Shown piece by piece: positions 1,710 to 34,657 of a stretch of 34,725 nt of DNA (position 1 is its first letter; every line of letters begins with the position of its first letter). This stretch comes from a virus: positions 1 through 34,725 of the IMG/VR virus record IMGVR_UViG_3300001372_000001, one strand, 5' to 3'. The translations under genes and the position numbers were made by a program. The notes under the pieces are model-generated. The model was given only the letters and a program-made list of their open reading frames with translations, made no database searches and was not told where the DNA came from.

Positions 1710-1720
1710 TTAAGCCCTTT

Positions 1721-2492: not shown

Positions 2493-2517
2493 ATGATTAT
2501 AATGTTAGCACAAATCA

Positions 2518-2554
2518 ATGAGAGTGAGCAAATGCGGCGTTTGCTCACTCTCTA
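2518..2554 (-). terminator. Strong 13-bp hairpin without a U-tract
   Basis: A perfect inverted repeat: GAGAGTGAGCAAA at 2520-2532 and its exact complement at 2540-2552, with a 7-base loop. It sits between the end of the 77-residue gene and the HD gene on the minus strand. No run of T follows on either strand. It could be a U-tract-less terminator, as described for actinobacteria, or an RNA-processing or stability hairpin. Confidence 0.6.
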
Positions 2555-2597
2555 CGGGAGCAAATGGCGGGGACGTTACCAAATGCTCAACCGTTCT

Positions 2598-2612
2598 CTA
2601 GGCATAGCCTAG
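2598..2612. repeat. 6-bp palindromic hairpin CTAGGC-ATA-GCCTAG
   Basis: A perfect inverted repeat with a three-base loop just downstream of the stop of the 2617-2850 gene. It could form a short hairpin at the 3' end of that message or bind a dimeric protein. No T-run is attached. Confidence 0.4.
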
Positions 2613-2616
2613 ATAT

Positions 2617-2850
2617 TTACAGTAATATTTTAGGTATAAGCTCGTTGGGGCATCCTTTGTCTAACAATTCCTTAACATCCCAAGGGGAGATGTGGGTATG
2701 AACTATCAACGCATCTATATACCCACAATCTACCCCTAGTAGTTCTACGAAACGCATCCTTCTATTATCAACCAATTGTTGTAACCTTTGTCGGTCCAAC
2801 TTTTGTTCAACAGTTTCAGGTACAGGTTTTTTACTCGGAGGCACTACCAA
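2617..2850 (-). CDS. Small protein, function unknown
   Basis: A 77-residue protein. A proline- and lysine-rich N-terminus (PPSKKPVPETVEQKLDRQ) leads into a helical stretch rich in Arg, Gln and Leu, then IDALIVHTHISPWDVKELL and a C-terminal ILL. The first possible start is TTG at 2850, which overlaps the upstream holin-like gene by 20 bases; a GTG two codons later is an alternative. The position next to holin-like and small membrane genes suggests a lysis or envelope role, but no family is recognised. Confidence 0.55.
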   Translation of the reverse strand: MVVPPSKKPVPETVEQKLDRQRLQQLVDNRRMRFVELLGVDCGYIDALIVHTHISPWDVKELLDKGCPNELIPKILL

Positions 2851-3268
2851 AGCCCTTGCTAGGTGCAGGTGATTCTCCTGGAGTTACCAAGCCCTGGAGG
2901 GCACGGAAACCAGCCATGAGAGCTCCTACTAGTGCGGCAAGTCCCAATGACTTAGCCGTAGCCAAATCGGGAGCATTAAGAACTCCTACTATTGAAACTA
3001 AGAAAGCACCAAGTCCAGCCTGTAGAAATGCGTCTAGGTAGGCTCCAAAAGGCTGAGAAAGATAGTTGCCAAATGAAAGCTGTGGCACAAACTGCTGAAG
3101 TGCCTTTACGCCTGCTGCTACTGAAGCAAACAGGGCAGCAACACCAAGAGCATAAGCCTGACTTAAATCAGGTGCGGCAAGAATTCCTGTAGAAAGAGCT
3201 AGTGTTGAAACCGCAAAGGCTCCAATAAAAGCACGTCCTGCTGCTGAGAGTAAGTCTTTAAAATTCAT
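2831..3268 (-). CDS. Holin-like membrane protein with internal duplication
   Basis: A 145-residue protein preceded by a clear AGGAGG ribosome site. It contains two copies of one unit. Residues about 12-58 carry AFIGAFAVSTLAL, ILAAPDLSQAYALGVAALFAS and AGVKALQ; residues about 80-126 carry AFLQAGLGAFLVS, VLNAPDLATAKSLGLAALVG and AGFRALQ. Each unit has two hydrophobic helices around a conserved APDL turn, giving about four membrane spans in all. A short Ser/Pro/Gly tail follows. Size and hydrophobicity fit a phage holin or a related membrane protein. The endolysin, however, lies 24 kb away on the other strand, so the lysis role is inference. Confidence 0.65.
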   Translation of the reverse strand: MNFKDLLSAAGRAFIGAFAVSTLALSTGILAAPDLSQAYALGVAALFASVAAGVKALQQFVPQLSFGNYLSQPFGAYLDAFLQAGLGAFLVSIVGVLNAPDLATAKSLGLAALVGALMAGFRALQGLVTPGESPAPSKGFGSASE

Positions 3269-3279
3269 TTTTCACCTCC

Positions 3280-3699
3280 TTATGGTCTTAGAATTAATTT
3301 TTGACATTCTTTAATTGTTGGAACATGTAATTTATCTTTGCTCAATCTTTTAACATTCTGTTCATGAACTTTTGATATAACTATTTTCCCCTGAGATATA
3401 TATGTTTCACTAAGCGCTAATTCTCCAACTATATGTGCATCAACAAGATTATTGTATTTTTGAAGAGTTGATCTTGAACTGATACAGCTTGTTACCGCAT
3501 TTCGGTTAATTTCATTTCTAAGTTGTTTATCGTTATTGTCAGATACTTTATAAAGTCCTGCGGTCATCCCTAATGCAAGAATTAAATATCCTAAGACAGC
3601 CCGACGTACATATTTATTCAGAGCATTAACGCGATCAGCTTCAGCCGCAACTCTTCCGTCCTCTGCAATAACTCTATCTTGTTCTGAATTTTTATCCAT
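3280..3699 (-). CDS. Single-span membrane protein, possibly spanin- or lysis-related
   Basis: A 139-residue protein. Residues 1-30 are charged and Arg/Glu/Asp/Ala-rich, which looks like a coiled coil (IAEDGRVAAEADRVNALNKY). One membrane span follows at about 34-52 (VLGYLILALGMTAGLYKV), then a soluble domain with two cysteines (TSCISS and KECQKL). The topology is N-in, C-out. It starts 8 bases inside the end of the next small membrane gene, so the two are translationally coupled. It belongs to a cluster of four small membrane proteins that may control lysis. No family is recognised. Confidence 0.6.
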   Translation of the reverse strand: MDKNSEQDRVIAEDGRVAAEADRVNALNKYVRRAVLGYLILALGMTAGLYKVSDNNDKQLRNEINRNAVTSCISSRSTLQKYNNLVDAHIVGELALSETYISQGKIVISKVHEQNVKRLSKDKLHVPTIKECQKLILRP

Positions 3700-3793
3700 G
3701 TATTAAACCCTGAAACTGTAAAAGCAATGCAACTACTAAAGTAATTGTAACATAGCATGCAGTAACGGGGTAGGTTTTAATCATAGTTGTCAT
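3692..3793 (-). CDS. 33-residue single-span membrane peptide
   Basis: Starts at the ATG at 3793, where ATGA overlaps the TGA stop of the upstream 73-residue gene, and ends inside the start of the next gene. The sequence begins MTTMIKTYPV and then has one clean hydrophobic helix (TACYVTITLVVALLLQF). A longer frame that extends through the upstream gene exists, but its N-terminal part has no sensible composition. The short form is the likely gene. Function unknown; the stop-start coupling on both sides supports expression. Confidence 0.5.
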   Translation of the reverse strand: MTTMIKTYPVTACYVTITLVVALLLQFQGLIHG

Positions 3794-4011
3794 TTTGAAT
3801 CCTTTTCGTCGGGGTTTTGTTCTTCCCCGTTTGTCTTCCCGTTCTTTCTCTTTTCCTCTGCTTTGAACACTAGAGGGAATCCCATCAGAGCTAGGGAGGC
3901 TGTGAGTAGAAACGGGCGTTCGCCTTGGTAAAATATCAATTCGTGTAGAAAGCCGAATGTCCCGATCAGGTATGCGAGTGCTTCCTTGGTTTGTCTTGAA
4001 AGAGGCCACAT
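3790..4011 (-). CDS. Small membrane protein (holin-like candidate)
   Basis: A 73-residue protein with two hydrophobic stretches, ALAYLIGTFGFLHELIF and PFLLTASLALMGFPLVF, and a very hydrophilic Lys/Glu/Asn tail (from residue 51). Two spans plus a charged cytoplasmic tail is the layout of class II holins. The ATG at 4011 lies six bases after a GATAAT box on the minus strand (4018-4023), so it could be leaderless. It is followed by two more small membrane genes with overlapping ends. Confidence 0.6.
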   Translation of the reverse strand: MWPLSRQTKEALAYLIGTFGFLHELIFYQGERPFLLTASLALMGFPLVFKAEEKRKNGKTNGEEQNPDEKDSK

Positions 4012-15502: not shown

Positions 15503-15835
15503 GGGCTCGACAGGTTTCGATTGCATAAAACAGATAATGAATTACAGCGGTTGATTGCCTAAAATCACAAAAACAATAAATGCAGATAATAAAGATGCAA
15601 CACATCTCTTCTTCTCGGGTGAGGCTACGGTCGCCCCGTCAAGAAGTCTGGCATACGCCTAAGCCAAGGAACCCAATTAGGTAGACTCTCAGGAAAGACT
15701 GAGTGGTGTCGCGGGTAATCCCGGCTGACGAATCGGAAAGACGATAAGGTGGAGGGAGTTAGTAAGCCCCCAAAAGCTGTTATAAGATTTATTGTTATGA
15801 TATGTAAGACGAGGGTTCGAATCCCTCCGAGTCCA
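15503..15835 (+). ncRNA. ssrA: Transfer-messenger RNA (tmRNA)
   Basis: The ends form a tRNA-Ala-like domain: acceptor GGGCTCG at 15503-15509 pairs with CGAGTCC at 15828-15834, including the G3-U70 alanine signal, then A73. The T arm is GAGGG-TTCGAAT-CCCTC. CCA is not encoded. A likely tag frame runs from GCA at 15582 to TAA at 15660-15662: 26 residues that begin ADNKDATHL and end RSLAYA. Bacterial tags are usually 8-15 residues ending in LAA, so this one is long and differs at the degron. tmRNA rescues stalled ribosomes with SmpB. It sits inside the replication operon. Confidence 0.95.
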
Positions 15836-26109: not shown

Positions 26110-26193
26110 GGAAGCTCGCATGTGGTGTGCTTATGCGCCTTGAAAGCGTTGATGGTCTTACCGGCCGTGTGGGTTCGAGTCCTACAGCTTCCG
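26110..26193 (+). tRNA. tRNA-Ser(UGA)
   Basis: Class II tRNA. Acceptor GGAAGCT/AGCTTCC, anticodon loop CTTGAAA (TGA), long variable arm containing GGT-CTT-ACC, T arm GTGGG-TTCGAGT-CCTAC, G73 as expected for serine. The anticodon stem has only four good pairs. CCA is not fully encoded. Confidence 0.88.
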
Positions 26194-26199
26194 CCTTAA

Positions 26200-26283
26200 G
26201 CGCGTGTGGTGAAATGGGTAAACACACTAGGCTTAGAACCTAGCGCCCCGCAAGGCTTGGAGGTTCGATTCCTCTCATGCGCA
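26200..26283 (+). tRNA. tRNA-Leu(UAG)
   Basis: Class II tRNA with a proper long variable arm. Acceptor GCGCGTG/CATGCGC, anticodon stem CTAGG/CCTAG with loop CTTAGAA, T arm GGAGG-TTCGATT-CCTCT, A73. This is the only leucine tRNA in the window with the normal class II shape. Confidence 0.93.
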
Positions 26284-26287
26284 TCAA

Positions 26288-26361
26288 GCCCCTTTAGCCC
26301 AACGGGTAGAGGCAGCAGACTTAAAATCTGCACAGTCAGAGTTCGAATCTCTGAGGGGGTA
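26288..26361 (+). tRNA. tRNA with Leu(UAA) anticodon on a class I scaffold
   Basis: Acceptor GCCCCTT/AGGGGGT (first pair G-U), D loop with GG, anticodon stem GCAGA/TCTGC with loop CTTAAAA, five-base variable loop, T arm CAGAG-TTCGAAT-CTCTG, A73. The anticodon reads UUA (Leu), but bacterial leucine tRNAs should have a long variable arm; this one does not. Confidence 0.9.
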
Positions 26362-26366
26362 CTTAA

Positions 26367-26440
26367 ACCGATCTATCCCAACGGGTAGAGGAAGCAGTTT
26401 CAAAAACTGTTCAGTCTGAGTTCGAATCTCAGGATCGGTA
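26367..26440 (+). tRNA. tRNA with Leu(CAA) anticodon on a class I scaffold
   Basis: Acceptor ACCGATC/GATCGGT perfect, anticodon stem GCAGT/ACTGT with loop TTCAAAA, variable loop of five bases, T arm CTGAG-TTCGAAT-CTCAG, A73. D loop and variable loop closely match the previous tRNA, so the two look like duplicates with different anticodons. Confidence 0.9.
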
Positions 26441-26574
26441 CTACGAAGGACTACGCCAAAGTATACCGAAGCTGTAAGGGGTGGAGGTTAAAACGGCGGT
26501 AAAGGGTTCCTTAGCCCGAAATCAGAGGTCCCCGGCGAGGAGTCGGGGTAAACCAAAAGCCCTAAGTTTATTAA
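26441..26574 (+). other. Structured 134-base spacer between tRNAs
   Basis: No gene is seen. CTTAG (26510-26514) pairs with CTAAG (26562-26566), enclosing the hairpin CCCCG/CGGGG (26530-26534 and 26544-26548). It must be part of the tRNA transcript. It may be a processing element or an unknown small RNA. Confidence 0.4.
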
Positions 26575-26649
26575 ACCGCTCTATTCCAATATGGTAGAGA
26601 AACAGGACTGAGATTCCTGACAGTGAGAGTTCGAATCTCTCGGGCGGTA
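26575..26649 (+). tRNA. tRNA with Leu(GAG) anticodon on a class I scaffold
   Basis: Acceptor ACCGCTC/GGGCGGT, D loop with GG, anticodon stem CAGGA/TCCTG with loop CTGAGAT, variable loop ACAGT, T arm GAGAG-TTCGAAT-CTCTC, A73. The scaffold is shared with the two tRNAs at 26288 and 26367. Confidence 0.9.
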
Positions 26650-26660
26650 CTTAAAAATAT

Positions 26661-26732
26661 GCATCTTTGGTATTCTGGGCAATACACTCGGCTGTAACCC
26701 GACGGAGCAAGGTTCGATTCCTTGAGGATGCA
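26661..26732 (+). tRNA. tRNA-Tyr(GUA), short variable loop
   Basis: Acceptor GCATCTT/AGGATGC, D arm GTAT...ATAC with GGG, anticodon loop CTGTAAC (GTA) on a four-pair stem, variable region of about four bases, T arm CAAGG-TTCGATT-CCTTG, A73. Bacterial tRNA-Tyr is normally class II; this one is class I in shape. Confidence 0.85.
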
Positions 26733-26735
26733 CCT

Positions 26736-26743
26736 GCTATAAT
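26736..26743 (+). promoter_or_regulatory. Extended -10 (TGC-TATAAT) for a leaderless micro-gene
   Basis: TATAAT at 26738-26743, preceded by an exact TG-n (TGC overlaps 26735-26737), six bases before the ATG of a 20-residue peptide. It lies immediately after tRNA-Tyr, so the micro-gene can be transcribed independently. Confidence 0.55.
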
Positions 26744-26749
26744 AAAAAA

Positions 26750-26812
26750 ATGAGTATTTTATACATACTTTTAATTATAATTGCAGTAATTGTTATTGTT
26801 AAATTAATATAA
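26750..26812 (+). CDS. 20-residue membrane micro-peptide
   Basis: ATG at 26750, stop TAA at 26810. The sequence is MSILYILLIIIAVIVIVKLI, a single hydrophobic helix. The ATG lies six bases after TATAAT and has no ribosome site, so translation would be leaderless. It fills the gap between tRNA-Tyr and tRNA-Ser(GCU). Low complexity makes a chance ORF possible, but the promoter spacing matches other leaderless genes here. Confidence 0.4.
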   Translation: MSILYILLIIIAVIVIVKLI

Positions 26813-26816
26813 TTTT

Positions 26817-26902
26817 GGAATGCATCCGGCAGGATGAGGAGCAGGTTTGCTAAACCTGTAAGGTCTTAATCGGCCTTCTGGGTTCGAGTCCCAGGCTTTC
26901 CG
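26817..26902 (+). tRNA. tRNA-Ser(GCU)
   Basis: Class II tRNA. Acceptor GGAATGC/GCTTTCC with one T-T mismatch, anticodon stem CAGGT/ACCTG with loop TTGCTAA, long variable arm, T arm CTGGG-TTCGAGT-CCCAG, G73. Confidence 0.92.
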
Positions 26903-26909
26903 CCTTATA

Positions 26910-27212
26910 ATGGCAATAAATGTAACAGCAGCTACCTTTGACGAGGAAGTTCTGACTAATGAATCTGTACTTGTAGATTTCTGGGCGGAATGGTGTTCTC
27001 CTTGTAAAGCAGTTGATCCAATTCTTAATACTATTTCTCAAGAGCGAGGATTAAAGCTGGTCAAAATTAATATTGACGAAGAATCGGAGCTCGCTGATCG
27101 TTTTGGAGTTAGATCTATTCCTACTATTATGATGTTTAATAATGGAATTCAAGGTGAAACGGTTATTGGAGCGGTAGGTAAAACCGCTATGGAAGACATG
27201 TTAAACCTTTGA
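26910..27212 (+). CDS. trxA: Thioredoxin
   Basis: A 100-residue thioredoxin fold. The active site is WCSPCK (C29, C32); the usual Gly is Ser. The cis-proline is in VRSIPT, and the strand VLVDFWAEW precedes the site. It would reduce the C-terminal cysteines of the phage NrdJ. The ATG lies seven bases after tRNA-Ser(GCU) with no Shine-Dalgarno, so it is probably made from the tRNA transcript and becomes nearly leaderless after tRNA 3' processing. Confidence 0.93.
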   Translation: MAINVTAATFDEEVLTNESVLVDFWAEWCSPCKAVDPILNTISQERGLKLVKINIDEESELADRFGVRSIPTIMMFNNGIQGETVIGAVGKTAMEDMLNL

Positions 27213-27218
27213 TATAAT
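27210..27218 (+). promoter_or_regulatory. Extended -10 (TGA-TATAAT) for the leaderless endolysin gene
   Basis: TATAAT at 27213-27218 with TGA before it overlaps the thioredoxin stop. Six bases separate it from the endolysin ATG, which would be the first transcribed codon. Confidence 0.6.
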
Positions 27219-27224
27219 TCCTTT

Positions 27225-27908
27225 ATGGCTAAACTTACTAGAGATTTAAAACTTGGGATGAAGGGGCTTGATGTAGAAGCTTCTAAGCGTTCTATCTATA
27301 GATACCTTGGGAAAGTTGTTAAGGGAGCATATTGGGCTAAGTATATTAAAGAAAGTTCTACTACAAAACTTTTTTTTGGCCCACTTTATAGGCATGATTT
27401 AATCAAAGCGCAAAAGCTTTTAGCTATTAAAAGAGATAGGCTTGGTGTCTTTGGTCAACACACATTAGATGCTCTTGAAAAAGTTGGAGCAGTAGATAGT
27501 GTTGCAGAGAAACTCTTTGAATATGCAGCGAAACCTAAGCCTCAGCTTCCTAAACTAGTAGAGCCAAAGCAAGGCTGGAATTCTCTTCATCATGAGTTAT
27601 GGGATGAGTATAGTTTAGGACGCAACATGGGCATGGCTGATCTTGGGACTTATAACCCCTCCTCTAGACTGCCTTCTGGTAAGCCTTCTGACCATGCTGT
27701 TTATCCAGCGTGGGCATTTGATTTAGGAGTTAGTCCTGCTACTGGATATAACAACCCAGTTGGAAGAAAATTTTTTGATATGATGGCGGGTCGCCCAGGT
27801 ATTAATTATGTAATTTTATCTCCTAAAATTTGGAGTGTATCTCAAGGTCTTCATGCTTATACTGGTGGGGATCATTACAATCATTGTCATGTAAGTGGCC
27901 TACATTAA
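27225..27908 (+). CDS. Endolysin with a C-terminal M15-like peptidase domain
   Basis: A 227-residue protein. The N-terminal half (TRDLKLGMKGLDVEASKRSI, then KRDRLGVFGQHTLDALEKVG) resembles a peptidoglycan-binding repeat domain. The C-terminal half has the zinc peptidase signature: PSDHAVYPAWAFDLGV (His and Asp ligands) and HYNHCHVSGLH (His-x-His end). This is the fold of D-Ala-D-Ala-type M15 peptidases used by actinophages to cut cell-wall peptides. No signal peptide is present, so a holin should release it. Translation probably starts at the 5' end of the message. Confidence 0.82.
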   Translation: MAKLTRDLKLGMKGLDVEASKRSIYRYLGKVVKGAYWAKYIKESSTTKLFFGPLYRHDLIKAQKLLAIKRDRLGVFGQHTLDALEKVGAVDSVAEKLFEYAAKPKPQLPKLVEPKQGWNSLHHELWDEYSLGRNMGMADLGTYNPSSRLPSGKPSDHAVYPAWAFDLGVSPATGYNNPVGRKFFDMMAGRPGINYVILSPKIWSVSQGLHAYTGGDHYNHCHVSGLH

Positions 27909-27916
27909 GGATAAAA

Positions 27917-28246
27917 ATGGCAGATTTTGCTAAGAAACCTACTCAACCGCCTTCAGGAGCAGATATGAATGCTCTTGTTTTGCGTGTTGATCAGCTGTCA
28001 AAGAAAGTTTTAAACAAAGGTTTTATTTCTAAGCTTGCTGCCTGGAAACGTTGGGTTGGCGGCGAAACTGAGTTTGATGGTACAGGATTAAGAGATGTAG
28101 TTAATGCTAATGCTTATGCATTAGACAGCGTAAAAAATAATTTAGATAATTTTGAAAGTGAAGTCAATCCTGCCATCGTGGATTTAAAAAAACGGGTGAG
28201 TGCGCTGGAGTCGCAGCCTAATACCCCTTTTCCGGGGTCTGGGTAA
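27917..28246 (+). CDS. Coiled-coil protein, probable N-terminal part of a frameshift product
   Basis: A 109-residue protein from the ATG at 27917, eight bases after the endolysin stop. It begins MADFAKKPTQPPSGADMNAL, has a tryptophan-rich basic segment (KLAAWKRWVGGE), then a C-terminal helix with heptad character (YALDSVKNNLDNFESEVNPA, then VDLKKRVSALE). The slippery heptamer C-CCT-TTT lies six codons before the stop. In the -1 frame translation continues into the TIM-barrel-like domain. Alone it could be an adaptor; fused, a virion-attached enzyme or baseplate protein. Confidence 0.7.
   Translation: MADFAKKPTQPPSGADMNALVLRVDQLSKKVLNKGFISKLAAWKRWVGGETEFDGTGLRDVVNANAYALDSVKNNLDNFESEVNPAIVDLKKRVSALESQPNTPFPGSG
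28225..28231 (+). promoter_or_regulatory. Candidate -1 ribosomal frameshift site (C CCT TTT)
   Basis: In the zero frame the codons are ACC CCT TTT CCG. Slipping back one base re-pairs CCT with CCC and TTT with TTT. The downstream -1 frame has no usable start codon before 28288, yet it already reads like protein (PGVWVNEEFETGYFSTP). Confidence 0.55.
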
Positions 28247-28875
28247 ATGAGGAATTTGAAACTGGATATTTCTCTACGCCGACTGAGATGGCGCAGAAAG
28301 CTAAGGCAGCAGGTTTTGGTTGGGTAACTTTAGAATATAACGACAGCAATAATGCTGCACGAGCTCCTGCTGTTAAAGCAGCTTGTGATGCTGCTGGATT
28401 AATTTTTACAATTTGGATGACGAGAAATTTTACTGCAGCTGAAGCTCGACAGGCTGTTGTAGAATCAGGAGCTAAGGGATTTATTGCTGAAGCAGAAATT
28501 CCTTCAGAGAATCCTCCTGGTGTTCCTAATCCACAGGCTCAGAACTGGCCTGAATTAATCTTTGAACTTAGTGATTTAAATATACACAAGGCTGTTGTTA
28601 CTAACTTTGCACCGTTTGTGCATTGGGATGGAGCACCATTTCCTGAAAAAGCAGCACCATTAATTGATGCTGGTTGGCATTGTATGACTGAGTGCTATCT
28701 TTCAGAAGCTCCTTTAGCTACTCCTGAGCGCACTAATTTCTATGCAATAACTAATCTTGGTTGGTCAGAAACACAACCAGTTCTAGGTATTTATGGTGGT
28801 AAAACGTATAGTGATTACCCAACCAGAGATAACTACCGCAACTGGTCAGTTTGGGATGCTAATTCGGTTCTCTAA
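28228..28875 (+). CDS. TIM-barrel-like domain, read by -1 frameshift or from ATG 28288
   Basis: About 216 codons in the -1 frame; the first ATG is at 28288. The sequence has alternating strands and helices expected of a glycoside-hydrolase-like barrel: WVNEEFETGYF, GFGWVTLEYND, AACDAAGLIFTIWMTR, SGAKGFIAEAEIP, HKAVVTNFAPFVHWDG, AGWHCMTECYLSEA and VLGIYGGKTYSDYP. An acidic pair (EAEIP and TECYL) could be catalytic. The first strand lies upstream of ATG 28288, so starting there would break the fold. The C-terminus overlaps the convergent M50 gene by 17 bases. A cell-wall or polysaccharide-active enzyme is likely. Confidence 0.65.
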   Translation, partial: FSGVWVNEEFETGYFSTPTEMAQKAKAAGFGWVTLEYNDSNNAARAPAVKAACDAAGLIFTIWMTRNFTAAEARQAVVESGAKGFIAEAEIPSENPPGVPNPQAQNWPELIFELSDLNIHKAVVTNFAPFVHWDGAPFPEKAAPLIDAGWHCMTECYLSEAPLATPERTNFYAITNLGWSETQPVLGIYGGKTYSDYPTRDNYRNWSVWDANSVL

Positions 28876-29224
28876 GTCCTTTAATTACTTGTCTACCATC
28901 AGTAGGGCCGAGAGGAATAGCATTTATTAAAAATATAAAGAAATTTAACACAAATAAATAATTTATAAACCAAAAATTAATAAAGGGGAAAGAAAGCATA
29001 GAAATACCGGCAGTAACAAGAAGCCCTGCTAATGCTATTTTCCATATATCTCTTGGCTTTTTCGATATATCTATTCTGGCTCCTATTCCAGACCAGTGAT
29101 AAACAAATCCGTGGAATGAATGACCCAATTTTTTCGCCATTAAAATATGCCCATATTCATGAGCATAAATAGAAAAAATAGTTAATATAACTATTACAAA
29201 AGAAAATATAAAAAGGTTATTCAT
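28859..29224 (-). CDS. M50 site-2-type intramembrane metalloprotease
   Basis: A 121-residue membrane protein, so a minimal version of the family. The zinc motif HEYGH (H22, E23, H26) lies in the first long hydrophobic segment; the third ligand motif NAIPLGPTDGRQ is near residue 100. Between them are two more hydrophobic stretches. Such enzymes cut transmembrane helices, often anti-sigma factors or signal peptides. It overlaps the upstream GT2 gene by 8 bases. A phage could use it to trigger host sigma release or to process membrane proteins; that part is inference. Confidence 0.85.
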   Translation of the reverse strand: MNNLFIFSFVIVILTIFSIYAHEYGHILMAKKLGHSFHGFVYHWSGIGARIDISKKPRDIWKIALAGLLVTAGISMLSFPFINFWFINYLFVLNFFIFLINAIPLGPTDGRQVIKGLREPN

Positions 29225-29873
29225 ACCCTACAGATACATTATACGAGTCTGCGATTTGAAATGTAACTACTCTTTGGCCATCTTCTAATTCGTTGGGCCA
29301 AATAACAGTAGACGTACAGTGTCCGAGGATCTGACCGCAATCAATATGAATAGGAATATTGAGTTCATTAAGTTTGTTGCAGAATAAATAATCTTCAGAA
29401 ATATCTTCGTTCTTCTGAAATATTTTTCCTCCATATGCTGCTCTGATTTTATCAAACACAGATTTGCGAACCAGCATGCCTGCTGTTCCAGTTTTATCTA
29501 CTTCAATCAAGCCCTCTGAGGGTATTTCTTGCATATTAATAGAAGAACCATCAAACTGAGCCACAGGACTGAATGGTTTTTGCCTCATTAAACAGAGGGG
29601 CGCGACAACTTCTACATTCCAATCCAATAATCTTGTGAGCATATCAGGAGCAAAGGCATGGTCATCATCCATGAACCACATCCAGTCTCCAACCATCCTA
29701 TCTTCTACAAGATTGTTTCGAGAGTTAACAACGTCTGATCCAATTGCCCAGGCAATTTGAGAATACGGGGGCGACTGAATTGCTGCTAAGCACATGGCAA
29801 AAACAACATATCTTCCTGTTTCATTGGCTGCAATACCAATTGTCCCTGCTGGTTGACTAGAAATTTTTGACAA
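29217..29873 (-). CDS. GT2-like glycosyltransferase
   Basis: A 218-residue GT-A protein. VVNSRNNLVEDRMVGDWMWF leads to the metal-binding MDDDHAF, and the acceptor-side acidic motif NEDISEDYLFCNKLNE and the HID-type His (HIDCGQILGH) follow. VDKTGTAGMLVRKSVFDKI is also typical of small phage GT2 enzymes. The start is TTG at 29873 after AAGGAG. It is the third sugar-transfer gene in the window and shares a transcript with the M50 protease. Confidence 0.85.
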   Translation of the reverse strand: MSKISSQPAGTIGIAANETGRYVVFAMCLAAIQSPPYSQIAWAIGSDVVNSRNNLVEDRMVGDWMWFMDDDHAFAPDMLTRLLDWNVEVVAPLCLMRQKPFSPVAQFDGSSINMQEIPSEGLIEVDKTGTAGMLVRKSVFDKIRAAYGGKIFQKNEDISEDYLFCNKLNELNIPIHIDCGQILGHCTSTVIWPNELEDGQRVVTFQIADSYNVSVGYE

Positions 29874-29905
29874 CGTAATTTTCTCCTTCTCTTATATTTA
29901 TAAGC

Positions 29906-29911
29906 ATTATA
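29906..29911 (-). promoter_or_regulatory. Extended -10 (TGC-TATAAT) for the GT2-M50 operon
   Basis: On the minus strand TGC-TATAAT lies directly after the tRNA-Gln(CUG) terminator hairpin and about 30 bases before the GT2 start, which has its own ribosome site. No clear -35 is needed for an extended -10. Confidence 0.6.
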
Positions 29912-29917
29912 GCACAG

Positions 29918-29945
29918 AAAAACCTCCGAAGAGGCTTTCTGTCGC
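29918..29945 (-). terminator. Rho-independent terminator after tRNA-Gln(CUG)
   Basis: On the minus strand GCCTC-TTCG-GAGG followed by TTTTT, with outer ACAGAA/TTCTGT pairs. It ends the minus-strand tRNA-Gln(CUG) transcript. The symmetrical outer pairs could also slow plus-strand transcription. Confidence 0.75.
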
Positions 29946-29971
29946 GGGGCTACCGCTTTGTATTATATAGG

Positions 29972-30042
29972 CTCCAGATCAAGGATTCGAACCTCAATTC
30001 GCGGCTTCAGAGGCCGGCGTCCTACCTTTAGACGAATCTGGA
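29972..30042 (-). tRNA. tRNA-Gln(CUG)
   Basis: Acceptor TCCAGAT/ATCTGGA with the U1-A72 glutamine signal and G73. Anticodon loop CTCTGAA (CTG), D loop with GG, T arm TGAGG-TTCGAAT-CCTTG. One anticodon-stem mismatch (27-43). Confidence 0.9.
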
Positions 30043-30053
30043 ATGAATTAAAT

Positions 30054-30082
30054 ATTATAACAATTGAGTGGTAACTTGTCAA
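30054..30082 (-). promoter_or_regulatory. Consensus promoter overlapping the 3' end of tRNA-Thr(CGU)
   Basis: TTGACA (30077-30082), 17-base spacer, TATAAT (30054-30059) on the minus strand. The first base of the -35 is the discriminator base of tRNA-Thr(CGU). It drives tRNA-Gln(CUG). Confidence 0.85.
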
Positions 30083-30153
30083 GCCACACTGAGGATTTGC
30101 GCCTCACTCTCTGGGTTACGAAGCCAGTATATCGCTGTCTATATTTGTGCGGC
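30082..30153 (-). tRNA. tRNA-Thr(CGU) with an altered elbow
   Basis: Acceptor GCCGCAC/GTGTGGC, U73. Anticodon loop TTCGTAA (CGT). D arm ATAT...ATAT with loop AGACAGCG (A18-G19 in place of GG). T arm TGAGG-CGCAAAT-CCTCA, so TTC is replaced by CGC. It starts three bases after the RNase P RNA 3' end. Confidence 0.7.
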
Positions 30154-30156
30154 ACG

Positions 30157-30466
30157 TTAAATGGGCTATAAGCCGGGTTCTGTCTAGGGAATACATCTGT
30201 CTCACATATTGTGATGGCACTATGCCATTGCTCTCTACCTGAAGGATTAGGAGTCCTCTGCTTGAGATTACACCCCGTCGAATCTGAAGTAAAACGATAG
30301 GTATCTGTACGCGACCTCAGAGTTTATCAATGGTTTCCCATTCGCTATGACCTATCTCCTTCTTTTTCTGCACGTTATCTTATACCTTTTAAACCTAATA
30401 TAAGAAGGTGGCCGGACTTTCCTCGAAGGTTTTTGAATTCCTCCGCATATTCCTACCCATTTAATT
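30157..30466 (-). ncRNA. rnpB: RNase P RNA (catalytic RNA)
   Basis: About 310 nt. On the minus strand the 5' P1 strand TTAAATGGG (30456-30464) pairs perfectly with CCCATTTAA (30157-30165). P2 is GGAATAT/GTATTCC. P3 is GGAGG/CCTTC. The universal core GAGGAAAGTCCGGC (30411-30424) and ACAGAACCCGGCTTA (30169-30183) forms P4 with its bulged U. The conserved AGATGTATTCCCT-GACAGAACCC order near the 3' end matches bacterial RNase P RNA. I could not place the L15 GGU loop that pairs with CCA. The RNA would cut 5' leaders off tRNAs, using the host or a phage RnpA protein. Confidence 0.93.
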
Positions 30467-30573
30467 AGATACATCACCACTCGCTACCCACCTCAGATTC
30501 TTTTCTCGCTGGCCTACAGATTGCGCTGTAGCGCCGAGATACTGAGCCTAAGCCTTGTCCGTGTGTATCTAAG
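30467..30573 (-). other. Structured leader between tRNA-Thr(GGU) and rnpB
   Basis: No gene. AGATAC (30537-30542) pairs with GTATCT (30565-30570). A second hairpin is CTACAG (30514-30519) with CTGTAG (30526-30531). This stretch is the 5' leader of RNase P RNA in the polycistronic transcript. Confidence 0.45.
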
Positions 30574-30648
30574 AGCCGACGGAAGGACTTGAACCTTCAT
30601 CCTCATCTATACCAAAGATGCGCTCTGTCCATTTGGAGCTACACCGGC
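30574..30648 (-). tRNA. tRNA-Thr(GGU)
   Basis: Acceptor GCCGGTG/CGTCGGC, U73. Anticodon stem CATCT/AGATG with loop TTGGTAT. D loop with GG. T arm GAAGG-TTCAAGT-CCTTC. Downstream of it lies rnpB. Confidence 0.9.
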
Positions 30649-30722
30649 TTGTTAGATTTTTTTCTTTTTTCTCTAGTTAATTTATTCTTTTTTCTTTTCC
30701 ATTCTCTGCAAAGATTACTTAA
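30649..30722 (-). other. Purine-rich spacer between tRNA-Met and tRNA-Thr(GGU)
   Basis: A 74-base tract, almost all A and G on the transcribed strand, with no stable stem and no gene. It stands out against the structured spacers elsewhere in the cluster. Confidence 0.3.
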
Positions 30723-30794
30723 TGCCTCTCTTGGGGATTGCACCCAAACCTTCGAGCTTATGAGGCTCGCGCTCTACTGTTAAGCTAGAGAGGG
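30723..30794 (-). tRNA. tRNA-Met(CAU), initiator-like 1-72 mismatch
   Basis: Anticodon stem CGAGC/GCTCG with loop CTCATAA. Acceptor CCCTCTC/GAGAGGC: the 1-72 pair is C-C, unpaired as in initiators, but the three G-C pairs of initiator anticodon stems are absent. Variable loop AAGGT is as in E. coli fMet. D loop AACAGTAG and T loop TGCAATC: the altered elbow type. A73. Confidence 0.8.
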
Positions 30795-30801
30795 TTGAAC
30801 T

Positions 30802-31887
30802 TTAGGGTCTAACAAAACCTTCTGCTATTTTATTTCCGAAGGTATCTCTTGTTTCTGCCCATTGTAGACCTAATAATCTAGTACCATTTTCATGTTGCCC
30901 CGCAGCCGTTACTTGGATGAACTCTGCATTCTCTCTTAGTTCATTTAAATTAGTCGCGCCGCCATAAGAAACGCCACTTCTAATTCCCCAAGCCAATTCC
31001 TTAATTACACTTTCTACACTACCTACCCTTTTTACAAAGCCATATGATCCTTCAGGAGCTCTATGACCATTTACATGCTCGGAAGCATTGCCATAATATT
31101 CTCCAGGGCTTGGTGCTTCATCACAACCTGCTAATAAAGAACCAATCATCACTGTATCCGCTCCAGCCGCAAGTGCTTTAACGATATCTCCTGAGTTTTT
31201 AATGCCCCCATCAGCAATAACTTTTACATCGGGATACCATTTTTTAATTCTACTTACTTCAATAATAGCTGAGAGTTGCGGCACTCCAAAACCAGTTACT
31301 TCTCTAGTTCTACAAGCTGCTCCTGGCCCAACACCAACTTTAATAACATCAGCACCAGCATCAGCAAGTCTTTCTGCTCCGAAGAATGTAGCTACATTAC
31401 CTACAATTAATTTATGCTCAGAAGTATTAAAAGTTTCTTTAAAATTCTTAATAAATTTAATTACTATATCATGATCACCATGAGCTACATCTAAACAAAA
31501 AACTCTTGCCCCACAATAATGTAATTTTCTTGCTCTTGTAAATCCATCTTTAAGACCTAAAGAACAACCAACTTGTCTTGTCCCTGATATAGATGCATAG
31601 TGATATTCTTCTACATTTTCTTCAACAGAATTGAACCTATGAAGAATACCAAAGCCTCCAACATCATACATTGCTCTTGCCATGTGATGTTCTGTAACGC
31701 TAGGCATATTTGCTGAAATAATAGGAATATTTAATTTAAAATTTTTATAAAGTTCCCCTGAAATATCAGCATCTTTGCGACTATCTAATGCTCCTGTCTT
31801 TGGGACCAAGAGTACATCATCAAAAGTAAAAGCTGGTTTAATTGTATGATACAAACTATTCTTTTTCCTTATCTTTTTCAAATCCAA
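30802..31887 (-). CDS. IMP dehydrogenase / GMP reductase family enzyme
   Basis: A 361-residue TIM barrel. Nucleophile C192 in [20 protein letters not shown], phosphate site [40 protein letters not shown], and the flap region [23 protein letters not shown] domains are absent, as in GMP reductase, but GVPQ and the AGCDEAPGE-like part look more like IMPDH. It would shift purine flow between IMP, XMP and GMP. The start is TTG at 31887, inside the end of the small upstream gene. Either activity would help the phage's own nucleotide supply. Confidence 0.85.
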
Positions 31888-32002
31888 ATGAACTTTTATT
31901 TAAGTCTGATTTAGTCATTATAATTGAGTCCCAAATCTTTATTTTGCCATCATGCATAGTGACATGAGTTTCGGAGTCGGGTAACCAAATTTCTTTAGCC
32001 AT
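31856..32002 (-). CDS. 48-residue protein upstream of the IMPDH/GMPR gene
   Basis: ATG at 32002 after GGGGAGG. Sequence MAKEIWLPDSETHVTMHDGK then IKIWDSIIMTKSDL and a charged tail. It overlaps the next gene by 32 bases, so translation is probably coupled. No family is recognised. Confidence 0.55.
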   Translation of the reverse strand: MAKEIWLPDSETHVTMHDGKIKIWDSIIMTKSDLNKSSFGFEKDKEKE

Positions 32003-32045
32003 TATATATTACCTCCCCTCATCCGTATATTAAATTTACATTAAG

Positions 32046-32119
32046 AGCCACACCAGAGGATCGAACTCTGAGCCTCATCCTTACAAGGGATTTGCTCTGC
32101 CGGACTGAGCTTCTGTGGC
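32046..32119 (-). tRNA. tRNA-Thr(UGU)
   Basis: Acceptor GCCACA/TGTGGC plus one mismatch, U73, anticodon loop CTTGTAA on ATCC/GGAT, D loop with GG, T arm CAGAG-TTCGATC-CTCTG. Confidence 0.88.
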
Positions 32120-32123
32120 ATAG

Positions 32124-32196
32124 TTTCCTAAATAGGAGTTGCACCTATGACCTTTGCCTTCGCAGGGCAATGCTCTGTCTACTGAGCTATTAGGAA
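32124..32196 (-). tRNA. tRNA-Arg(GCG), altered elbow
   Basis: Acceptor TTCCTAA/TTAGGAA, A73. Anticodon stem TTGCC/GGCAA with loop CTGCGAA. D loop AGTAGACA lacks GG (A18-G19). T arm ATAGG-TGCAACT-CCTAT, so TGC instead of TTC. Bacteria normally read CGN with an ACG anticodon. Confidence 0.85.
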
Positions 32197-32201
32197 ATAA
32201 G

Positions 32202-32277
32202 CTCCAAGGGTAGGGATCGAACCTACAACCAACAGTTTCAAAGACTGTGCTCCGATGCCAATACAGAGTGCCTTGGA
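32202..32277 (-). tRNA. tRNA-Gln(UUG)
   Basis: Acceptor TCCAAGG/CCTTGGA with U1-A72, G73. Anticodon stem ACAGT/ACTGT with loop CTTTGAA. T arm GTAGG-TTCGATC-CCTAC. Confidence 0.93.
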
Positions 32278-32281
32278 ATGT

Positions 32282-32635
32282 TTAAGTTACGCGCCAAGCT
32301 CTAAACTGAAGAACCGCGCTAACATCATGATCAACCCAAACTTGATTGCTACCATCAGGTTGATTATAAATATTTCCAGGGAATTTCCCAAAGAAATATG
32401 TAGTTGATGCATTTGAAACACTTACTAGATCATCTGCTACCGGCCATTCATTGTCCACAATGAGTCCTGTCAATACTGTGAACTGCTGTCCTGTAGTAGA
32501 AGATATAACTTCTAGAAAAACATCTCCAGAAGAATTATCAAAATAAAAACCATCTGCACCTGTTACTGTATACAGTGATGGAGGCGCAGCTAATATGCGC
32601 GAAATGTCTGTAACGCTTAATTGTATTCTGGCCAT
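32282..32635 (-). CDS. 117-residue beta-rich protein inside the tRNA cluster
   Basis: Sequence ARIQLSVTDISRILAAPPSL, then GADGFYFDNSSGDVFLEVIS and TYFFGKFPGNIYNQPDG. It is strand-rich with few charges, like a small virion or decoration protein. The ATG at 32635 is exactly six bases after TATAAT (32642-32647) with no ribosome site, so it should be leaderless. No family is recognised. Confidence 0.7.
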   Translation of the reverse strand: MARIQLSVTDISRILAAPPSLYTVTGADGFYFDNSSGDVFLEVISSTTGQQFTVLTGLIVDNEWPVADDLVSVSNASTTYFFGKFPGNIYNQPDGSNQVWVDHDVSAVLQFRAWRVT

Positions 32636-32641
32636 GAGTTA

Positions 32642-32647
32642 ATTATA
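32642..32647 (-). promoter_or_regulatory. TATAAT six bases before the ATG of the 117-residue gene
   Basis: A minus-strand -10 box just after tRNA-Lys(UUU). The spacing to ATG equals that of the endolysin and the 26750 micro-gene. Confidence 0.6.
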
Positions 32648-32658
32648 TACTATTTAGG

Positions 32659-32730
32659 TGGATGTACTAGGAATCGAACCTAGGACTTGGGTTTAAAAGA
32701 CCCTAGCTTTACCATTAAGCTTACACATCC
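32659..32730 (-). tRNA. tRNA-Lys(UUU)
   Basis: Acceptor GGATGTG/TACATCC, A73. Anticodon loop CTTTTAA. T arm CTAGG-TTCGATT-CCTAG. D loop with GG. The anticodon stem has one mismatch at its outer end. Confidence 0.9.
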
Positions 32731-32743
32731 AAAGTGGGGTTTG

Positions 32744-32813
32744 TTCTCGGAATGGAGTTCCCCGTTCCATTTCTTCCTCGCCATACGCCGGAAGCTAACA
32801 AAGGCACCGAGAA
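32744..32813 (-). other. Three-way-junction spacer RNA (70 nt)
   Basis: TTCTCGG (32744-32750) pairs perfectly with CCGAGAA (32807-32813). Inside are AATGGA/TCCATT (32751-32756, 32766-32771) and CTTCC/GGAAG (32773-32777, 32790-32794). It separates tRNA-Gly and tRNA-Lys. Confidence 0.5.
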
Positions 32814-32815
32814 AG

Positions 32816-32889
32816 AGCCACCACTCGGATTTGAACCGAGACTCCATGCTTGGAAGGCACGTTTGCTAGACCATTAACAATATGGCGGC
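32816..32889 (-). tRNA. tRNA-Gly(UCC)
   Basis: Acceptor GCCGCCA/TGGTGGC, U73. Anticodon stem CGTGC/GCATG with loop CTTCCAA. T arm CTCGG-TTCAAAT-CCGAG. D loop with GG. Confidence 0.92.
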
Positions 32890-32998
32890 ATATCCTTGGC
32901 CGCGAGTCGCGTCAAACTCCGCCAAGACTCTTTTCCCCTCTACTCTTGGACGCTGACGTAGAGATGAAAAAGAGAATCTATCCCGTTAAGAATAGAAG
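32890..32998 (-). other. Structured spacer between tRNA-Asn and tRNA-Gly
   Basis: Two hairpins: CTTGGC/GCCAAG (32895-32900, 32921-32926) with an inner CGCG/CGCG, and a compound stem CTCTTTTC/GAAAAAGAG (32928-32935, 32966-32974) enclosing CTCTAC/GTAGAG (32938-32943, 32958-32963). No gene. Confidence 0.45.
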
Positions 32999-33070
32999 CT
33001 CCAACACTAGGGTTCGAACCTAGAATACTTGGTTAACAGCCAAGCGTGATGCCGATTTCACCATACTGGA
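32999..33070 (-). tRNA. tRNA-Asn(GUU)
   Basis: Acceptor TCCAGTA/TGTTGGA, G73. Anticodon stem CTTGG/CCAAG with loop CTGTTAA. T arm CTAGG-TTCGAAC-CCTAG. Confidence 0.93.
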
Positions 33071-33075
33071 AAGTT

Positions 33076-33106
33076 GACCGTAATTTTCTTTACTGCGCCT
33101 ACGGTC
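33076..33106 (-). repeat. 7-bp hairpin in the Ala-Asn spacer
   Basis: GACCGTA (33076-33082) and TACGGTC (33100-33106) pair perfectly around a 17-base loop. It lies just before tRNA-Asn on the transcribed strand. Confidence 0.45.
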
Positions 33107-33140
33107 TAGCCCATTAACAGCGGCATTTCGCCCTGTAAAG

Positions 33141-33208
33141 TGGACAATCAGGGAATCGAACCCTGCTGAATTCCTGAGTGCAAATCAGGTGACCACCCCA
33201 AGCAGTCC
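33141..33208 (-). tRNA. tRNA-Ala(UGC)-like, shortened D arm
   Basis: Anticodon stem CCTGA/TCAGG with loop TTTGCAC (TGC). T arm CAGGG-TTCGATT-CCCTG. A73. The acceptor GGACTGC/ATTGTCC pairs well only in its first four positions, the alanine G3-U70 pair is absent, and the D arm is about five bases short. It may be degenerate. Confidence 0.65.
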
Positions 33209-33372
33209 CATCGCCCAAGTGGGAGGGGTTTTCTCCCGTAATACAAACCCCGCACTCGTTCTGTTCCCAGGTCTAGGTGCGCCCTACCCGGATTCTAAGT
33301 CATATTTTCCCAAGCGTTACGATACTCGCCTATATATTTTTTTTGAATCAACAAGACATGTTCTCTTGTTAG
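33209..33372 (-). other. 164-base structured spacer between tRNA-Val and tRNA-Ala
   Basis: No gene is supported. Hairpins: AACAAGA/TCTTGTT (33350-33356, 33364-33370) directly after tRNA-Val, and GGGAG/CTCCC (33221-33225, 33233-33237). An eight-T run on the plus strand lies at about 33337-33344. Confidence 0.35.
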
Positions 33373-33446
33373 TGGGCAATGTAGGCTTCGAACCTACGGC
33401 CTTTCGGGTGTAAACCGAACGCTCTCCCAAGCTGAGCTAAATGCCC
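33373..33446 (-). tRNA. tRNA-Val(UAC)
   Basis: Acceptor GGGCATT/ATTGCCC with one mismatch, A73. Anticodon stem TTCGG/CCGAA with loop TTTACAC. T arm GTAGG-TTCGAAG-CCTAC. Confidence 0.92.
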
Positions 33447-33551
33447 ATAAAATGCCCGTATATCGCTACGGGACGAGCGCCGAATGACAACGCCTCAATC
33501 GGTAACGTCTACACTCCGCAGTAGATGCGTCGGCCGAACTTTTTATTACAG
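33447..33551 (-). other. Structured spacer between tRNA-Arg(UCU) and tRNA-Val
   Basis: Hairpins CCCGTA/TACGGG (33455-33460, 33467-33472) and TCTAC/GTAGA (33508-33512, 33521-33525). No gene is seen. Confidence 0.4.
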
Positions 33552-33624
33552 ACCGCCTTGAAGGAATCGAACCTTCGCTCATGGGGTAGAAACCCATTGC
33601 TCTATTCCGCTGAGCTAAAGGCGG
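33552..33624 (-). tRNA. tRNA-Arg(UCU)
   Basis: Acceptor CCGCCTT/AAGGCGG perfect, U73. Anticodon stem ATGGG/CCCAT with loop TTTCTAC. T arm CGAAGG-TTCGATT-CCTTC. D loop with GG. Confidence 0.92.
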
Positions 33625-33628
33625 AAGA

Positions 33629-33738
33629 GAGAGAGGTGAGCTTACTTTCTATCTTCCCTTCGCTATCATTTCTAACAACTACCTACCATATCACTCCGAA
33701 TTAAATAGACTTACGGAGTTCCCTCAGCTACCTCTCTC
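33629..33738 (-). other. Spacer RNA closed by a 13-bp stem
   Basis: GAGAGAGGT (33629-33637) pairs with ACCTCTCTC (33730-33738); after one bulged base AGCT (33639-33642) pairs with AGCT (33726-33729). Inside is the hairpin ACTCCG/CGGAGT (33693-33698, 33714-33719). It lies between tRNA-Lys(CUU) and tRNA-Arg(UCU). Confidence 0.55.
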
Positions 33739-33741
33739 AAG

Positions 33742-33813
33742 TGATTCCCGAAGGATTTGAACCTTCACCATCCTGTTTAAGAGACAGGAGCTCTACCGTT
33801 GAGCTAGAGAACC
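33742..33813 (-). tRNA. tRNA-Lys(CUU)
   Basis: Acceptor GGTTCTC/GGGAATC, A73. Anticodon stem CCTGT/ACAGG with loop CTCTTAA. T arm GAAGG-TTCAAAT-CCTTC. Confidence 0.93.
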
Positions 33814-33852
33814 AAGCCGGAGTTTCAACAGCACAACCCGTTGTTATCTCCA

Positions 33853-33925
33853 CGATTCATACGGGAATCGAACCCGTTCTAAGTGGTAGACAGCCACTTG
33901 TGCAAGACCACTACACTAATGAACC
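33853..33925 (-). tRNA. tRNA-Asp(GUC)
   Basis: Acceptor GGTTCAT/ATGAATC, G73 as expected. Anticodon stem AGTGG/CCACT with loop CTGTCTA. T arm ACGGG-TTCGATT-CCCGT. Confidence 0.93.
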
Positions 33926-33978
33926 AAGATGGAAAGTTACATTTTTAATGCGGGAACCCTTCCATATTAAACCGCAAG

Positions 33979-34047
33979 CACCAGTTGAAGGAATCGAACC
34001 CTCTCCTAGAGTTTTGGAGACTCCTTGGCTACCTTAGCCTAACTGAT
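33979..34047 (-). tRNA. tRNA-Trp(CCA)
   Basis: Acceptor ATCAGTT/AACTGGT, G73 as expected. Anticodon stem GGAGT/ACTCT with loop CTCCAAA. T arm GAGGG-TTCGATT-CCTTC. Short D arm with GG. Confidence 0.9.
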
Positions 34048-34050
34048 ATA

Positions 34051-34164
34051 TTAAGCGTTTTCGACGGCCCAATTAGGTGTCCAAGCCATAGTTACAGCGG
34101 GAGTCCAGCTTGCTGAATACTGTGAATTAGAACCTGAGCCTGTACTTACTTTAATTGCTGTCAT
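34051..34164 (-). CDS. 37-residue small protein inside the tRNA cluster
   Basis: ATG at 34164, stop at 34051. Sequence MTAIKVSTGSGSNSQYSASW then TPAVTMAWTPNWAVENA. It is rich in Ser, Thr and Trp, like a fragment of a virion surface protein. The ATG lies nine bases after a TATAAT box with no ribosome site. Its own strong promoter supports expression. No family is recognised. Confidence 0.5.
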   Translation of the reverse strand: MTAIKVSTGSGSNSQYSASWTPAVTMAWTPNWAVENA

Positions 34165-34173
34165 CGTTTAAAG

Positions 34174-34201
34174 ATTATAGCATGTTTTTTCTACTTGTCA
34201 A
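34174..34201 (-). promoter_or_regulatory. Consensus promoter after tRNA-Ile(UAU)
   Basis: TTGACA (34196-34201), 16-base spacer, TGC-TATAAT (34174-34179) on the minus strand. The -35 lies one base after the discriminator of tRNA-Ile(UAU). It drives the 37-residue gene and the tRNAs from Trp onward. Confidence 0.85.
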
Positions 34202-34202
34202 G

Positions 34203-34277
34203 TGGACGATCAAGGAGTTGAACCTTGCTCTAATACCTTATAAGAGTACACGCGACTACCGGCCGCACCCATCGTCC
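34203..34277 (-). tRNA. tRNA-Ile(UAU)
   Basis: Acceptor GGACGAT/ATCGTCC perfect, A73. Anticodon stem GTACT/GGTAT (wobble pairs) with loop CTTATAA. T arm CAAGG-TTCAACT-CCTTG. It reads AUA directly, without needing lysidine-modified CAU. Confidence 0.85.
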
Positions 34278-34281
34278 ATTC

Positions 34282-34397
34282 GGCTTTAGTGGACCCTCAT
34301 CTCTTTATATTGAAAGGAGACACCCATAAATATAAAGCGAGTATTTATTTTATGTTTTCTAGTGTGGGCCAGTCGCCATAAAATCTACACTAAAGCC
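34282..34397 (-). ncRNA. Three-way-junction RNA of unknown family
   Basis: Three perfect stems. Closing: GGCTTTAGTG (34282-34291) with CACTAAAGCC (34388-34397). Arm 1: CTTTATATT (34303-34311) with AATATAAAG (34329-34337). Arm 2: ATTTTATG (34347-34354) with CATAAAAT (34377-34384). 116 nt, between the two tRNA-Ile genes. Strand assumed from the tRNA transcript. Confidence 0.6.
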
Positions 34398-34400
34398 TAA

Positions 34401-34473
34401 TACACAGTATAGGAATCGAACCTATCAGTACATGTTTATCAGACATGCGTGTTCTCCAGTTCACCACCTGTGT
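34401..34473 (-). tRNA. tRNA-Ile(GAU)
   Basis: Acceptor ACACAGG/ACTGTGT with six good pairs, A73. Anticodon stem CATGT/ACATG with loop CTGATAA. T arm ATAGG-TTCGATT-CCTAT. D loop with GG. Confidence 0.9.
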
Positions 34474-34584
34474 ATGAGAGGATTTTCCTGTTCCTCTAAC
34501 AGACTCACTTATTTTGAGGTAGAAGTTGTGAGCCCCTTCTCTCTGGTTCTACCATAACTCAACGGTAGAGCGCGGCACCCGTAG
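34474..34584 (-). other. Structured spacer between tRNA-Arg(UCG) and tRNA-Ile(GAU)
   Basis: Three short hairpins: AGAGG/CCTCT (34477-34481, 34493-34497), CTCAC/GTGAG (34504-34508, 34528-34532) and TCTACC/GGTAGA (34548-34553, 34564-34569). No gene is seen. Confidence 0.4.
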
Positions 34585-34657
34585 ACTCCCATGTAGGATT
34601 TGCACCCACGATCTTTTGGTTCGAAGCCAAACGCTGTATCTACTTAGCTAATGGGAG
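34585..34657 (-). tRNA. tRNA-Arg(UCG), altered elbow
   Basis: Acceptor CTCCCAT/ATGGGAG, U73. Anticodon stem TTTGG/CCAAA with loop CTTCGAA. D loop AAGTAGATAC lacks GG (A18-G19). T arm GTGGG-TGCAAAT-CCTAC. Confidence 0.88.

Follow-up and report, generated by a model that had tools for sequence, protein, structure and literature searches.

The window, by which we mean the whole stretch of DNA analysed, is a 34,725-base viral record of a tailed phage. Genes for terminase, portal and a glycosyltransferase lie on its minus strand, and genes for DnaB, primase, SSB, DNA polymerase III alpha, a RecA/UvsX-like protein, thymidylate synthase and ribonucleotide reductase on its plus strand; a scan of 20 of the proteins of the window revealed no tape measure gene. 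There are 25 tRNA genes in all (26110-34657) and one tmRNA. The tRNA set of this fragment is without Pro, Phe, Glu, His and Cys, and the phage-borne tmRNA (15503-15835, plus strand) has the tag ADNKDATHLFFSGEATVAPSRSLAYA. The candidate frameshift gene lies downstream of a cluster of tRNAs, a thioredoxin gene and a gene resembling endolysins; the features of this region are as follows.

27225-27908, plus strand: endolysin-like neighbour gene, with a weak match to phrog_32486 (E 0.053)
27917-28246, plus strand: ORF1, unshifted product of 109 amino acids ending NTPFPGSG; helical, probably coiled-coil; homologues aligned
28207-28210, plus strand: GGAG, Shine-Dalgarno-like, 14 nt before the heptamer; possible stimulator
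28219-28221, plus strand: TAA in the -1 frame upstream of the heptamer, bounding the slip region
28225-28231, plus strand: slippery heptamer C CCT TTT in X XXY YYZ phase, with Pro tRNA in the P site and Phe tRNA in the A site
28231-28875, plus strand: ORF2, the -1 extension starting SGVWVNEE, stop included; predicted eight-stranded TIM barrel
28244-28246, plus strand: TAA, 0-frame stop of ORF1
28288-28290, plus strand: ATG, the first possible start in the ORF2 frame, after barrel strand 1 and with no Shine-Dalgarno motif at the usual distance

The last codons of ORF1 read ACC CCT TTT CCG GGG TCT GGG TAA, so the heptamer is in phase and begins six sense codons before the TAA, as an earlier reading of this DNA from its sequence alone had claimed. 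The -1 frame is open from 28222 to 28872, with its stop codon at 28873-28875, and because of the TAA at 28219-28221 any -1 shift is confined to 28222-28246, about 22 nt. CCCTTTT is the sole heptamer in this 22-nt overlap, and the first ATG, GTG or TTG of the -1 frame is codon 21, counted from 28228. Heptamers of the XXXYYYZ type occur 133 times, in any phase, on the plus strand of the 34,725 bases, and 25 ORF ends on the two strands of the window are followed by a -1 extension of at least 60 codons. Among these, the end of ORF1 is unique in combining a short overlap with an in-phase heptamer; at the ten other heptamer-bearing ends the overlaps are all at least 109 nt. Conservation in relatives is a stronger test than such chance counts within the window.

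Conservation of the junction in related phage contigs

Searches of IMG/VR with ORF2 and ORF1 identified five distinct contigs (L001, L002, L004, L005 and L006), giving six loci in all with the window and spanning 39% to 67% GC. A pattern search of viral DNA for further members returned four contigs, all of which had already been found, and the scan of bacterial genomes yielded no relatives. Among isolate phages, tblastn gave no match to ORF1, ORF2 or the endolysin-like gene of the window (E 0.01), nor to ORF2 of L001, L002, L004 and L006 (E 1). In L001, L002, L004 and L005, which derive from distinct uncultured-phage contigs, ORF1 is in frame 0 with the heptamer in phase. The relatives compare as follows (heptamer; distance of the 0-frame stop past it; peptide in the -1 frame; earliest ATG, GTG or TTG of the ORF2 frame, which is codon 21 in the window; ORF2 identity to the window).

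L001: CCCTTTC; 4 codons; GIWLNEE; codon 49; 58%
L002: CCCTTTT; 2 codons; GIWLNEE; codon 37; 51%
L004: CCCTTTC; 4 codons; GLWVNEE; codon 34; 62%
L005: CCCTTTT; 2 codons; GVWLNEE; 50% (partial row)
L006: CCCTTTC, in another phase; 34%

At the level of sequence, this comparison shows the site, the frame, the codons and the absence of a start to be conserved. CCCTTTT or CCCTTTC is found in phase at five of the six loci, the window included, and thus in four of the five relatives; a clean single frame in relatives, which the sequence-only reading had named as the mark of a sequencing error, was found in none of the five. In L002 the heptamer marks the very point at which the -1 frame opens and is again the sole one in the overlap, which here measures 13 nt. 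No start codon lies ahead of the GxW[VL]NEE motif in the -1 frame of the window, L001, L002 or L004; L006 differs.

Codon usage points to constraint at the site. In the five aligned ORF1 sequences (L006, with the heptamer in another phase, was left out) both Pro residues at the site keep a single codon, CCT in 5/5 and CCG in 5/5, while among 32 invariant fourfold-degenerate columns of ORF2 none keeps one codon in all four loci compared, L005 being left out for its frame break and L006 for its other frame and divergence. A simultaneous requirement for Gly in the -1 frame can account for the conservation of CCG. In the GC-rich L005, CCT makes up 5 of 48 sampled Pro codons, yet CCT stands at the slippery site. 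The product of the codon chances, 1.6e-6, is a rough guide, since the relatives were treated as independent and the codon samples are small (215 to 4235 codons). The same early reading had called the -1 frame protein-like ahead of its first ATG, and the changes between relatives agree: from heptamer to first ATG they number 6, 3 and 10 at -1-frame positions 1, 2 and 3 in one comparison, 7, 5 and 12 in another and 7, 5 and 9 in a third, third positions changing most. Judged from these alignments, the stretch changes as a translated frame does.

As a possible stimulator of the shift, TGGAG is identical in all five aligned loci, a conservation due in part to Leu-Glu codons, and the gaps between GGAG and heptamer in the five loci are 14, 16, 11, 14 and 16 nt, with a second GGAGG in L005 at 13 nt. 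In the accessible text of a review (PMC5009743), stimulators of -1 frameshifting are placed 9-14 nt upstream, so that the 16-nt gap of L001 lies beyond this range; the same text indicates that stimulators seem to be absent from some tailed-phage frameshifts. Pseudoknot-free folding of five sequences gave no support for a shared structure downstream of the site, the z-scores ranging between -2.2 and +2.2, and the covariation term of the downstream consensus fold was positive, i.e. unfavourable.

Predicted folds, gene neighbours and the role of the barrel

For both members of the pair the folds are predictions. The model of ORF2, built from a six-sequence alignment, is an eight-stranded TIM barrel (pLDDT 87.3, pTM 0.86), in keeping with the TIM-barrel-like domain proposed from sequence. 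In alignment A4, which takes all six loci, the L005 row begins past its frame break. Strand 1 comprises residues 3-6 (GVWV) and the first ATG corresponds to residue 21; the prediction thus also places the first strand upstream of the ATG, as had been suggested. The ORF1 model has helices at 14-32, 37-48 and 58-98, with a low-confidence mean pLDDT of 68.5, and its terminal helix of 41 residues is compatible at that confidence with the coiled coil first proposed. No membrane anchor was seen in the frameshift product.

Sequence searches place neither protein in a known family: there was no convincing match in Pfam, PHROG or NCBIfam for ORF1 or ORF2, no Pfam family at E <= 1 for ORF2 of any of the six members, no NCBIfam family at E <= 1 for the ORF2 protein of the window, and no match at E <= 1 of ORF2 to sequences of solved structures, where ORF1 gave weak helical matches only. 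The best family matches were at chance level, for example a coronavirus spike model that matched ORF1 at E 0.019, below its cut-off, and the fold search of ORF1 in BFVD, made with a weak query model, returned nothing at E <= 0.001. By structure, the best PDB matches of ORF2 in Foldseek are sugar epimerases (E 4e-7, TM 0.59) and other TIM barrels, and the best viral structure match is an unnamed phage protein (TM 0.64, 18% identity). The top match in VIA-align is the GHL10 domain of Cwp19 from Clostridioides difficile (PDB 5OQ2; Z 15.2, rmsd 3.2, 203 residues aligned, 9% identity), a TIM barrel like the predicted ORF2 fold, and GH18 and GH20 enzymes follow at Z 13-15. Function does not follow from the fold, as several unrelated TIM barrels also reach Z 13-15, nearly the score of Cwp19. 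A sequence relation of ORF2 to Cwp19 was not detected. Assignment of the barrel to a glycoside hydrolase family (GH18/GH20/GH25/GHL10-like) was rejected because no sequence signature was found, although the predicted fold agrees. E88, E90, E155 and E160 are invariant in all six loci; the first two form an ExE at 88/90, possibly akin to the DxE motifs of GH18 and GH25, at the end of predicted strand 4 (84-89). Cwp19 is reported to be a TIM barrel that acts as a peptidoglycan hydrolase (PMC5765458).

The gene adjoining the frameshift gene has a peptidoglycan-binding match in three of the six loci: in L001 it lies upstream and also matches endolysin PHROGs, in L005 it is a downstream lysin (PG_binding), and in L004 it lies downstream and matches under Pfam's cut-off. 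The L005 lysin also matches phrog_32486 (E 1.2e-7), the function of which is not known; this is the only family matched by the neighbour in L002 (E 5e-4) and by the endolysin-like gene of the window. L002 shares the order of the window within 1213-3651, namely a tRNA cluster, an endolysin-like gene, the frameshift gene and tRNAs. In L006 the next gene has no Pfam or PHROG match, and the upstream gene is collagen-like and matches tail fibre PHROGs. The full contig of L005, designated L016, encodes a head-tail adaptor, a tail terminator, a tape measure protein, proteins of 437 and 227 amino acids, the frameshift gene and the lysin, in this order.

These data bear on what the barrel does. The frameshift could be real and the barrel a receptor-binding or structural domain, or an enzyme acting on small metabolites, rather than a glycan cutter; we consider this quite possible, if a little short of an even chance. 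Sugar epimerases and other TIM barrels at the top of the Foldseek matches fit such a role, as does the position of the L016 gene after the tape measure and other tail-module genes, a frequent place of fibres and receptor-binding proteins. In favour of a glycan hydrolase are the four glutamates shared by every locus, of which E88 and E90 lie where strand 4 ends, and the neighbours with peptidoglycan-binding matches.

Proposed mechanism, alternatives and known systems

We consider it likely (probability of roughly 0.78) that a programmed -1 ribosomal frameshift joins the 109-residue helical stalk protein to the TIM barrel. Most ribosomes would stop at 28244-28246 and release the stalk protein ending in VSALESQPNTPFPGSG. 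At C CCT TTT a fraction would slip, with the tRNAs for Pro and Phe shifting back by one base, perhaps aided by pairing of the GGAG 14 nt upstream with 16S rRNA, and translation would then proceed through the junction peptide VSALESQPNTPF-SGVWVNEEFETGYFSTPTEMAQK to 28875, giving a fusion of about 320 amino acids with the barrel at its end. As the window carries no Pro or Phe tRNA gene, both slipping tRNAs would be supplied by the host or by parts of the phage genome outside this fragment. The helical stalk probably oligomerises, so that the barrel would be carried by only some stalks or subunits, and the barrel, in the tail tip or the lysis apparatus, is likely to bind or cleave a glycan of the cell envelope. 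Oligomerisation, stoichiometry and glycan target are what we infer, and the same applies to glycosidase activity and the location of the product; our confidence is moderate to low that frameshifting doses a glycan-active barrel onto a helical stalk serving the tail tip or lysis.

Among explanations that dispense with a frameshift, the production of two separate proteins, ORF2 being translated by reinitiation or internal initiation past the ORF1 stop, fares best and is nevertheless improbable. It draws on L006, in which ORF2 is offset by +1, ORF1 ends CCC TTT CCG TAG and an ATG at 3302 follows seven bases past this stop with GAGG directly upstream, and on the ATGs internal to ORF2 in the window, L001 and L004 and the GTG in L002. 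In these four loci, however, the first ATG, GTG or TTG lies 21-49 codons into the barrel frame, at differing positions and without a clear upstream Shine-Dalgarno motif; initiation at the first ORF2 ATG would, according to the model, cost the barrel its strand 1, and the GxW[VL]NEE peptide is conserved before the first start, in a stretch where third positions vary most. An indel introduced by sequencing or assembly, or decay of the gene, is very improbable: the loci are metagenome contigs, and L005 and L006 show other frame irregularities, but an identical offset occurs at an identical place in five distinct contigs, the window included, ORF2 shows conservation and has a well-folded predicted structure, and a shared error is unlikely in loci spanning so wide a range of GC. 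Transcriptional slippage on the C-T run, yielding mixed mRNA, can be given equally little weight. In its favour, such slippage occurs in bacteria on longer A or T runs, and the process is treated in the accessible part of PMC5009743; against it, the runs at the site are just three to five bases long (T3 in L001 and L004).

The programmed -1 frameshift that we favour belongs to a known kind, that of phage frameshifts adding a C-terminal domain, while the gene family and the kind of domain are new. As in the tail assembly chaperones G/GT of lambda and many other phages, the shift would be a -1 slip on an XXXYYYZ heptamer close to where the first ORF ends, giving a low-copy fusion alongside a short form. 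Identity with G/GT was considered and rejected: the gene for G/GT is by definition directly upstream of the tape measure gene, whereas in L016 the frameshift gene lies downstream of the 895-residue tape measure, between it and the lysin, and the extension is here a predicted TIM barrel. In the part of PMC10885494 available, 2397 of the 2476 joined frameshift genes of SEA-PHAGES are tail assembly chaperones. Also comparable are the frameshift-added Ig-like and other extensions of capsid and tail proteins, which likewise place a C-terminal domain on a fraction of subunits and are known from T3 gene 10, the Listeria phages A118, A500 and PSA, and phage A2; unlike these, the added domain here is an enzyme-like TIM barrel and the first part a short helical protein. 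According to the accessible text of PMC5009743, such extensions are joined by -1, +1 or in-frame fusion in different phages, which parallels L006. The frameshift of phage 9g at CCCUUUUUUU also uses a C3-U slippery run, as given in the available text of PMC4276943, but is a -2 shift in a tail assembly chaperone gene. In the passages and listings of openly accessible literature searched, there was no description of a helical phage protein being extended by frameshifting into a TIM barrel.

If a small helical protein gains an entire predicted enzyme domain through a conserved frameshift, this would broaden a picture dominated by chaperones and would offer a case of enzyme dosage set by the ribosome; the barrel may represent a new family of envelope-active phage proteins. 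It would also show that such proteins are split or clipped by gene callers, at the cost, in the present case, of the first strand of the barrel. It is conceivable, though unlikely in our estimation, that several phage lineages use the ribosome to dose the copies of a glycan-cutting barrel on an oligomeric coiled-coil stalk, forming part of a virion or a lysis rod, with the barrel exchanged between phages at the slippery junction, L006 being an example, and the two parts joined through -1 slippage, +1 slippage or reinitiation.

The two irregular loci are not directly relevant to the site in the window, yet they make plain that the join differs between members of the family. In L005 an apparent small deletion at 2958-3010, real or due to an assembly error, restores frame 0 after the NEES/NEE motif, and this return of the frame after NEES leaves the barrel broken as assembled. 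L006 may use reinitiation or a +1 slip at TTT C, or may carry an indel. Its ORF1 is 59% identical to that of the window, as against only 34% for ORF2, and with the +1 frame and an ATG of its own the region 2971-3910 may be one in which the barrel was swapped at the junction. Away from the frameshift gene, phrog_16701, a peptidase, is matched both by L006 (4752-5468) and by the window (864-1709, minus strand).
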